DNA from: Elusimicrobiota bacterium
Lineage (GTDB): Bacteria > Elusimicrobiota > Elusimicrobia > F11
Assembly (NCBI GenBank): GCA_003140895.1
Contig: PLLH01000088.1
Coordinates: 1-41,064 of the forward strand
DNA: 41,064 nucleotides
Direction of reading: 5' to 3'
Positions 15,220-18,539 of this stretch are shown in pieces. Every line of letters starts with the position of its first letter. Positions within the stretch are counted from its first letter, which is position 1. The notes under the pieces were generated by a model. The model made no database searches, had not been told where the DNA came from, and was given only the letters and a program-made list of their open reading frames with translations. A program made the position numbers and the translations under genes.

Positions 15220-15306
15220 CAGTGGGACCCTCGACGGTGTCGTCAGGTGGTCCTTCAATTCTTCCCGTCAATGAAACCGACGGGCCATAACAAAGGAGTC
15301 ATCACC

Positions 15307-16635
15307 ATGCGTCGCCGCGTGTGCCGCTTTATTGCTTTTTTATTGTCATTGCCGTTTGTCCTCTCACTTCTCTCCCGTCCCTGTTTTGCCGATTCGGCTT
15401 CCCGAATTGACTCAGGGGACACGTCCTGGATCCTCATCAGTTCCGCCCTCGTATTCTTCATGATGCCGGGACTGGCCTTCTTTTACGGAGGTCTCGTCCG
15501 AAAAAAGAACGTTCTCTCCATTCTCATGCAATGTTTCGTGACCATCTGCCTGATCACGCTCCAGTGGGTCCTGTTCGGCTACAGCCTCTCCTTCGGGCCC
15601 GATGTGAAAGGCCTGATCGGAAACCTCTCCTGGGCCGGGCTCCACGGCGTGGGGCTCGACCCCTTCCCGGCGTATGCCGCCACCGTTCCCCACCAGGCGT
15701 TCATGATTTACATGGCGATGTTCGCCATCATCACGCCGGCGCTCATTTTAGGCGCCTTCGCGGAACGAATGCGGTTCAGCGCCTTCTGTCTCTTTATGGT
15801 CCTGTGGTCGACGATCGTCTACGATCCGGTGGCGCATTGGATATGGGGCTTGGGTGGTTTCCTTCGCCAAGCCGGCACGCTTGATTTCGCCGGAGGAATC
15901 GTCGTTCACGTGAACGCGGGGGTGGCGGCCCTGGCCACGGCGCTCTATTTGGGGAAACGGCAAGGCTTTCCTTCTCGCATCTCCCCGCCGCACAACCTTC
16001 CTCTGGCCGTGCTGGGCGCGGGCATGCTCTGGTTCGGCTGGTTTGGGTTTAACGCGGGAAGCGCGCTCTGTTCAGGCGCCCTGGCCGTGAACGCGTTTGT
16101 CGTCACGCACGTGGCCGGCGCGGCCGCCGGTCTGACATGGGGACTTCTTGATTGGGTTTTTAACGAACGGCCGACGGTCCTCGGCATGATCACGGGAGCG
16201 GTGGGCGGCCTGGCCGCCGTGACACCGGCTTCCGGCTACGTCAATATCTGGGGGGCGCTGGCCATCGGCGTCGGCGCCTCATTCGTGTGCTACTGGGCCG
16301 TCGTGTTCGTCAAAGCGAAATTCGCTTATGACGACTCACTGGACGTCTTCGGCGTTCACGGAGTGGGTGGAATCTGGGGCTCCATCGCGGTTGGATTGTT
16401 CGCGACCAAGGTGGTGAACGGAGCCGGCGCGAACGGCCTATTCTATGGAAACCCGGCGCAACTCCCCATACAACTGAAAGCCACCGCGATCACCGCTGCC
16501 TATTCTTTGACCGTCACCTTCGCGCTCTTGTGGCTGGTGGATCACGCGGTTGGGCTTCGCGTCTCGGAACATGAAGAACGGATCGGGCTCGACCTGGCGC
16601 ACCACCGCGAAGTCGGCTACACCGTGTTGGACTAA
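15307..16635 (+). CDS. amtB: Ammonium transporter
   Basis: 442 residues from ATG 15307, chosen because AAAGGAG lies at good spacing; the track start at 15247 has none. A signal peptide (MRRRVCRFIAFLLSLPFVLSLL...FADS) precedes eleven membrane spans, as in the Amt family. Family motifs: SALVFFMMPGLAFFYGGLVRKKNV, YDPVAHWIWG, the first pore histidine in HVNAGVAALA and the second in FGVHGVGGIWG. AmtB forms an inner-membrane trimer conducting ammonium/ammonia under nitrogen limitation. Its partner PII protein is encoded 14 nt downstream. Confidence 0.96.
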   Translation: MRRRVCRFIAFLLSLPFVLSLLSRPCFADSASRIDSGDTSWILISSALVFFMMPGLAFFYGGLVRKKNVLSILMQCFVTICLITLQWVLFGYSLSFGPDVKGLIGNLSWAGLHGVGLDPFPAYAATVPHQAFMIYMAMFAIITPALILGAFAERMRFSAFCLFMVLWSTIVYDPVAHWIWGLGGFLRQAGTLDFAGGIVVHVNAGVAALATALYLGKRQGFPSRISPPHNLPLAVLGAGMLWFGWFGFNAGSALCSGALAVNAFVVTHVAGAAAGLTWGLLDWVFNERPTVLGMITGAVGGLAAVTPASGYVNIWGALAIGVGASFVCYWAVVFVKAKFAYDDSLDVFGVHGVGGIWGSIAVGLFATKVVNGAGANGLFYGNPAQLPIQLKATAITAAYSLTVTFALLWLVDHAVGLRVSEHEERIGLDLAHHREVGYTVLD

Positions 16636-16649
16636 TAAGGAGACCCTTT

Positions 16650-16991
16650 ATGAAATACATTGTCGCTGTTATTCAGCCGGACCGGGTGCAAGAAGTGTTA
16701 CAAATTCTCGCGGAGAAAGAAATTCATTTGGTGACGGTGTCCCAGGTAATGGGACGCGGACGCCAAAAAGGAATTGCCGAGGTGTACCGAAGCCATAAGG
16801 AAGTGGGCAGCTTGCTCAAAAAAGTGAAACTTGAGATCGCTGTGAACGATGAATTCGCCAGTCAAACCGTCGAGGCCATTACAGAGGGAGCCCGCACGGG
16901 GCACATCGGGGATGGAAAAATATTCGTGATGAATATGGAGGATTGTTACCGCATTCGAACAGGAGAAACCGGACCTGTCGCCATCGGCTAG
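16650..16991 (+). CDS. glnK: PII nitrogen-regulatory protein (GlnK/GlnB), T-loop lacks Tyr51
   Basis: 113 residues, colinear with E. coli GlnB/GlnK. Present: Q39-K40-G41 in GRGRQKG, Y46 and R47 (EVYR), K58, the B-loop TGHIGDGKIFV and the C-loop RIRTGE, so ATP/ADP and 2-oxoglutarate binding look possible. The T-loop then reads SHKEVGS where most PII proteins read GAEYxVD: position 51, the uridylylated tyrosine in proteobacteria, is glutamate. Canonical GlnD control therefore cannot occur at that residue. It is co-transcribed with amtB, and as in other amtB-glnK pairs should block the channel when nitrogen is plentiful. AAGGAG precedes the ATG. Confidence 0.95.
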   Translation: MKYIVAVIQPDRVQEVLQILAEKEIHLVTVSQVMGRGRQKGIAEVYRSHKEVGSLLKKVKLEIAVNDEFASQTVEAITEGARTGHIGDGKIFVMNMEDCYRIRTGETGPVAIG

Positions 16992-17032: not shown

Positions 17033-18412
17033 CTACAAACTTTCTTTCAAGTCGGAAAAGAACACCAACCCGCGTTCGAGTTTGGCATTGTACGCCCGTT
17101 GGATGTCTTTCCAGGAGTAATCAACCCCCTTAACAGCTTGCCGGACGACGTGCCGCTCCTCCAGAGCCGCGCGGCTCGACCGCAACTCAGAGACGCCAAT
17201 CAAATTTCCCCAATCATCTTTAAGTTGAATCCCGTAATACGGATCCAATATAATCCATCTCCTCGTTGACGGGTCCAGATATTCGATGAATTGATGAACG
17301 CTATCTCCCGTTTCCTGATCCTGGCAATGAATTTCGCGGGTCGCGATGCCGACCATTTCACACACTTCCGATAACGCCAGAGAAGCGCATTGACAATAGC
17401 GATTCTGGACGGATTGAAGATCCTGACGCATGAAACCACAAAAATAATAGGGCATGTCATTTTGAAATTTCCGAACGATGTTCGCTCGGCGCTCTCCATC
17501 CGGAAGAGTCAACGTCTCATTAACAAATTGAGCCAGCTTTAGGACACGGGAGTGAACCGAACCCGTCTTCCCTGCATGAAGGCCGGCGGACGCCAGAATA
17601 TAGTCCCTGAAAAGATTTCTCTCATTAGAAATGGCTGGCACCTTTCCCGTTTCAATCATCGTCGCGGCATCGTAACGGACATCCGTGTCCTCCGAAAAGC
17701 CGAACGAAAGCCACAGACTCACCGCTTCATAGTCATCCGAGTCAAACGTGACGTCGAGCTGTTTTCTGAACCCATTCGTTGGATGCTGCGTCAGATGGTA
17801 CCCCAGAACGGGGCCGGAAAACGGTAGAAATAGAAGTCGATGGCCTATGGCCGAAAGACCCGTATCAAAAAAAGAAGGCAACCACTGCAATTTAGGATGA
17901 GGGTGTAACGGATAACTCGACAAAATAAGGGTAATAAATGTTTTCCCCCGGATGAAAAGAGAAGCGATTTTGGTCCCCAAAAGGGTTTGTTTCAACCGGA
18001 AGACAATAAATCCAATCCGATCTTTCTTTCGCCCTGTTATCACAAGCCCCTTATATCCATTCTTTCCATCGCTGATCATGACGTGAACGCTGGCTCTGTA
18101 GCGCGTGTGCGGCTTCACAGGAATCGTCTGATAAATAATAGGCCGAAACCCTTCCAACGAAATCCCCTGAACGGAGGCTCGGCCCGAAAAGGAGAGATCG
18201 CTCAAACGCACCGATCCCTTCGGATAGGGATAGAGAAGGCGCCAATAAGAAGGAGACCCGCTCTCGTCCCACTCTTCAAAATCACCGTTTTTCACGAGCG
18301 GCGTGGAATCCGGAGAATGAAATAACGGCGTTTGCTGCGCCCGAAGACAATCAACGCGCGCGCAAAACAAAAGAAAGAAGGTGGAAAAAATAAAAAAGCG
18401 TGAACGATTCAT
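17033..18412 (-). CDS. Exported protein with lectin-like and transglutaminase-like domains
   Basis: About 459 residues from ATG 18412; in-frame ATGs at 18421 and 18445 are possible. A signal peptide (MNRSRFFIFSTFFLLFCARVDC) is followed by a carbohydrate-binding-like opening, LVKNGDFEEW...YWRLLYPYPKGSV, typical of CBM4/9-type jelly rolls. The C-terminal third resembles transglutaminase-like Cys proteases: Cys in RYCQCASLAL (about 342), His in DSVHQFIEYLD (about 373) and Asp in WIILDPYYG (about 390). I infer an exported enzyme or binding protein acting on the cell surface or exopolysaccharide. It has an extended -10 (TGATAAAAT, near 18454-18462) upstream but a poor -35. It converges on amtB-glnK. 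Confidence 0.7.
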   Translation of the reverse strand: MNRSRFFIFSTFFLLFCARVDCLRAQQTPLFHSPDSTPLVKNGDFEEWDESGSPSYWRLLYPYPKGSVRLSDLSFSGRASVQGISLEGFRPIIYQTIPVKPHTRYRASVHVMISDGKNGYKGLVITGRKKDRIGFIVFRLKQTLLGTKIASLFIRGKTFITLILSSYPLHPHPKLQWLPSFFDTGLSAIGHRLLFLPFSGPVLGYHLTQHPTNGFRKQLDVTFDSDDYEAVSLWLSFGFSEDTDVRYDAATMIETGKVPAISNERNLFRDYILASAGLHAGKTGSVHSRVLKLAQFVNETLTLPDGERRANIVRKFQNDMPYYFCGFMRQDLQSVQNRYCQCASLALSEVCEMVGIATREIHCQDQETGDSVHQFIEYLDPSTRRWIILDPYYGIQLKDDWGNLIGVSELRSSRAALEERHVVRQAVKGVDYSWKDIQRAYNAKLERGLVFFSDLKESL

Positions 18413-18539
18413 CGTTGGCATCGAATGGGAAAAGGTACAAGACAATGTAAGCTATTTTATCACGGAAAGCGGTAAACGAAACGCACAAGAGCCCCAGCCT
18501 TCGCGGGGTGTGGAAGAGAATAAAATGGGACGGGCGCGT

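Follow-up and report, generated by a model that had tools for sequence, protein, structure and literature searches.

A GlnK-type PII protein with a lineage-standard glutamate at residue 51, encoded beside amtB in an Elusimicrobiota bacterium

The amtB-glnK locus

The window analysed here is a stretch of 41,064 nucleotides from an Elusimicrobiota bacterium (contig PLLH01000088.1), in which a gene for an ammonium transporter, amtB, is followed by a gene for a PII protein (Table 1). The gap between the amtB stop codon and the start of the PII gene is 14 nt, the PII gene has its own ribosome-binding site, and the gene after it (17033-18445) lies on the opposite strand. Judging from this spacing, amtB and glnK at 15247-16991 would be co-transcribed as one operon. 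Translation of amtB probably starts at an internal ATG near 15307 rather than at 15247.

Table 1. Features of the amtB-glnK locus, in window positions
Feature	Position	Strand	Evidence
amtB, ammonium transporter	15247..16635	+	TIGR00836 amt 473 bits, cut-off 343; PF00909 434 bits
Shine-Dalgarno-like AAGGAG	16637..16642	+	read from sequence; 7 nt upstream of PII ATG
glnK-type PII protein, 113 aa, Glu51	16650..16991	+	PF00543 full model, E 3.9e-26; alignment
Residue 9 (Gln) codon of PII gene	16674-16676	+	
T-loop region, residues Q39-K58, QKGIAEVYRSHKEVGSLLKK	16764..16823	+	translation, alignment
Glu51 codon of PII gene	16800-16802	+	within T-loop region

The window protein is an ordinary GlnK-type PII, lineage-standard and presumably unmodified. 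First of all, the gene translates cleanly into a complete PII protein, which matches the P-II family model PF00543 at 91.8 bits (curated cut-off 25) over model positions 1-102 of 102 and a solved GlnK1 with an E-value of 6e-30. Second, it shows the linkage to amtB by which GlnK proteins are recognized. Third, the residues of the ATP/ADP and Mg site, taken from the list compiled for methanogen GlnKs (PMC8395244), are all present (T29, Q39, G41, K58, A64, G87, D88, K90, F92, R101 and R103), and the effector-site side chains listed in the same work are kept except at residue 9. Finally, the pair resembles E. coli GlnK-AmtB, with 39% identity, the same numbering through the T-loop and the plug residue Arg47, although the gene order is glnK-amtB in E. 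coli and amtB-glnK here.

Residue 51 and its distribution

The alignment of the window PII with E. coli GlnK is gap-free from residue 1 through the T-loop, and Q39, Y46, R47 and K58 all fall at their E. coli numbers. The T-loop reads YRSHKEVGSLL, with S48, H49 and K50 ahead of E51. Because this alignment has no gap, the residue at position 51 is Glu itself rather than a neighbour displaced by misalignment, and a shifted alignment that would bring another Tyr to this position is excluded. Translation and alignment thus bear out the reading in an earlier note on this DNA, that the numbering matches E. coli up to the T-loop and that Glu stands at 51. The protein therefore has Glu51 in place of the Tyr51 found in the T-loop of GlnD-modified PII proteins, and adenylylation of residue 51 is as impossible as uridylylation. 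The sole tyrosine of the T-loop is Y46, which is invariant in an alignment of 12 sequences.

Comparison with PII families, as the earlier note had proposed, places Glu51 as the standard state of a lineage. Relatives sharing 68-80% identity belong to Omnitrophota, Kiritimatiellota, Lentisphaerota, Verrucomicrobiota, Planctomycetota and Fibrobacterota. The nearest named one is an Omnitrophota MAG at 80%, a resemblance that, taken by itself, would make Omnitrophota the probable source of the window. Among 117 aligned PII sequences, the ones that combine His49 and Glu51 read YR[SG]H[KRV]E. Glu51 is present in 18 of 18 members of the clade formed by the window PII and 17 full-length relatives, which spans Omnitrophota, PVC phyla and Fibrobacterota and has SH-aLRT 97 in a tree built without the T-loop columns. 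Since the 18 group together even when residues 47-54 are deleted before tree building, a single origin of the motif suffices. A one-off mutation or a sequencing error as the source of Glu51 is excluded, as the residue is shared across the clade. These comparisons show that Glu51 is a fixed, inherited state of the lineage and no special adaptation of this genome. More widely, the 117 sequences, whose sampling is biased towards the query, carry Tyr at position 51 in 34 cases and Glu in 24; the rest have Val, Ile, Met, Leu, Arg, His, Gln or further residues, and this spread makes the lack of Tyr51 a common state among PII proteins. The viral GlnK proteins described in one publication retain Tyr51. 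When the SHKE loop is written as a degenerate DNA pattern, it matches in 16 of the 295 genomes searched in the phylum, a count that we do not use as a prevalence because only 11 of the matches lie on verified PII genes and a reversed control pattern matches as well.

The transporter gene follows the same distribution. An AmtB frame adjoins the PII gene in 17 of 17 clade relatives, as it does in the window, and the partner AmtBs (15 of them long enough for use) form one clade with SH-aLRT 99, so the amtB-PII pair of this clade has been inherited or transferred together. This bears on the proposal of Glu51 as a special, permanent mimic altering AmtB binding, which the earlier note had raised and which we find unsupported: Glu51 is lineage-standard, one of the two parts of a refuting condition named in that note, and always beside amtB, and E. 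coli GlnK deprived of Tyr51 still regulates AmtB (see below). An acidic residue does occupy the modification site, and it could in principle hold the protein in the uridylylated state permanently, so that AmtB is not bound and the PII serves another target or the channel is always open. However, the constant adjacency to amtB in all 17 relatives, together with the co-inheritance of the AmtB partners, makes abolished PII-AmtB binding hard to explain. Furthermore, a Lys or Arg at position 50 precedes Glu51 in nearly all clade members, thus balancing the net charge at 50-51, and UMP is much bulkier than a carboxylate. We consider such permanent mimicry highly improbable.

It is also conceivable that a regulatory modification sits on another T-loop residue (S48, H49 or S54) and replaces that of Tyr51, in the manner of Ser49 in some cyanobacteria. 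S48 and H49 are well conserved in the clade, and phosphorylation of Ser49 is known for Synechococcus PII (PMC4285133). On the other hand, two clade members have Gly at position 48 and no candidate modifying enzyme is linked to the locus, and we regard this substitution of sites as very unlikely.

GlnD searches and other PII genes of the genome

The search for a glnD gene that the earlier note had suggested returned none in the window's own genome, in 40 relatives or in 9 more genomes reached via related PII loci. The GlnD/GlnE domain PF08335, which was matched in E. coli, Caulobacter and Corynebacterium as controls, has no match in the own genome (2.53 Mb, 99.84% complete), and the full GlnD model TIGR01693 gives nothing over its cut-off in the 41 genomes comprising the own genome and its 40 relatives, or in the 9 others. 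No enzyme known to act on residue 51 thus came to light. Sub-threshold matches to TIGR01693 fall mostly in the middle of the model (the HD part, about 320-540), with no full nucleotidyltransferase half. The one in the own genome lies in an open frame of 484 aa, which, judged by eye, reads as CCA/poly(A)-polymerase-like, and a hidden GlnD there is rejected. The glnD gene that accompanies a GlnD-modified PII is thus absent from the genome. Since the genome lacks GlnD and residue 51 is Glu, there is no GlnD-type covalent layer, and the statement that uridylylation at residue 51 is impossible stands. This absence of GlnD-type control is nevertheless unremarkable; glnD occurs throughout Proteobacteria and Actinobacteria and elsewhere only sporadically (PMC4285133).

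The own genome contains further PII genes. A second amtB-glnK pair (L006:2329-4048, + strand, contig C106), whose amtB is interrupted by unresolved bases, encodes a PII that is one residue shorter ahead of the T-loop, reads YRGQKVIPN without Tyr51, and clusters with PII proteins of Bacteroidota and Kiritimatiellota. Elsewhere (G000:C11:53364-55642), a gene for an amino acid permease (L005:7365-9239, + strand) is directly followed by a free PII gene (L005:9101-9643, + strand). The permease, of 624 aa (AA_permease, PF00324), carries a fused C-terminal PII domain (PF00543, residues 512-618), and may be under built-in PII control. The same combination of fusion and free PII occurs in a same-class relative, G032 (L140:1628-3508 and 1133-1540, both - strand), and is absent from a further 59 genomes sampled in the phylum; a text search of the literature gave no paper describing such a fusion. 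It looks more unusual than the Glu51 finding.

Effector control of AmtB

We propose that the window protein is a GlnK-type PII that regulates the adjacent AmtB purely via effector binding, with no GlnD-type covalent layer, and consider this very probable. In a nitrogen-replete cell, the T-loops of ADP-bound PII, with Arg47 at the tip, would plug the AmtB pores; in a nitrogen-poor cell, MgATP and 2-oxoglutarate would bind, and the T-loops would refold and release AmtB. No covalent modification would be required for this cycle of binding and release. AmtB binding by the window PII and its response to effectors are expected from its family, and the protein is presumably not modified at residues other than 51. 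A caveat to the effector-only reading is that the genome assembly is in draft form, with 118 contigs.

A direct precedent comes from E. coli. GlnK Tyr51Ala binds and releases AmtB in vitro like the wild type, according to ADP, ATP and 2-oxoglutarate, and in vivo it is sequestered to the membrane upon ammonium shock, only faster (Radchenko and colleagues, PMC4274968). As this variant regulates AmtB, the standard effector mechanism is the most likely one for the window PII. Tyr51Ala is not Tyr51Glu, however, and a charged residue 51 could still tune AmtB affinity. GlnK-AmtB without modification is present in many organisms (PMC4285133), and the GlnKs of GlnD-less organisms (such as archaeal GlnKs and Thermus thermophilus PII) share with the window PII the fold, the effector site and the absence of GlnD-type modification. 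Thermus thermophilus PII also lacks Tyr51 (YRGTTVK). These proteins differ from the window PII in the sequence of the T-loop tip, which is fixed as SHKE here, whereas the E. coli system differs in having Tyr51 and GlnD.

Residue 9 calls for more care. A basic residue at this position is common in PII although not defining; E. coli GlnK has Lys there and many other PII proteins have Arg, whereas the window PII has Gln9, and in methanogen GlnK, Arg9 and Lys58 hold the 2-oxoglutarate carboxylate (PMC8395244). As Gln9 replaces the salt-bridging Lys or Arg of characterised PII proteins, sensing of 2-oxoglutarate by the window PII is only assumed. All clade members whose sequence reaches this position have Gln9, as do many amtB-linked PII proteins of PVC, Spirochaetota and Acidobacteriota; since Acidobacteriota and an Actinomyces pair Gln9 with Tyr51, the changes at residues 9 and 51 are separable. 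Gln9 bears on function, not on PII family membership. The SHKE T-loop and Gln9 could together mark an AmtB-specific PII subgroup with a non-classic effector logic, such as one that mainly senses ADP/ATP and responds weakly to 2-oxoglutarate, and with Lys50-Glu51 newly contacting the co-inherited AmtB; we regard this as unlikely.

Taken alone, the window PII changes no accepted idea. The amtB-glnK pair, co-inherited without a GlnD layer, is a clear added case that extends across several phyla, and it fits the idea that PII proteins are universally controlled through effector binding, with uridylylation as an extra.
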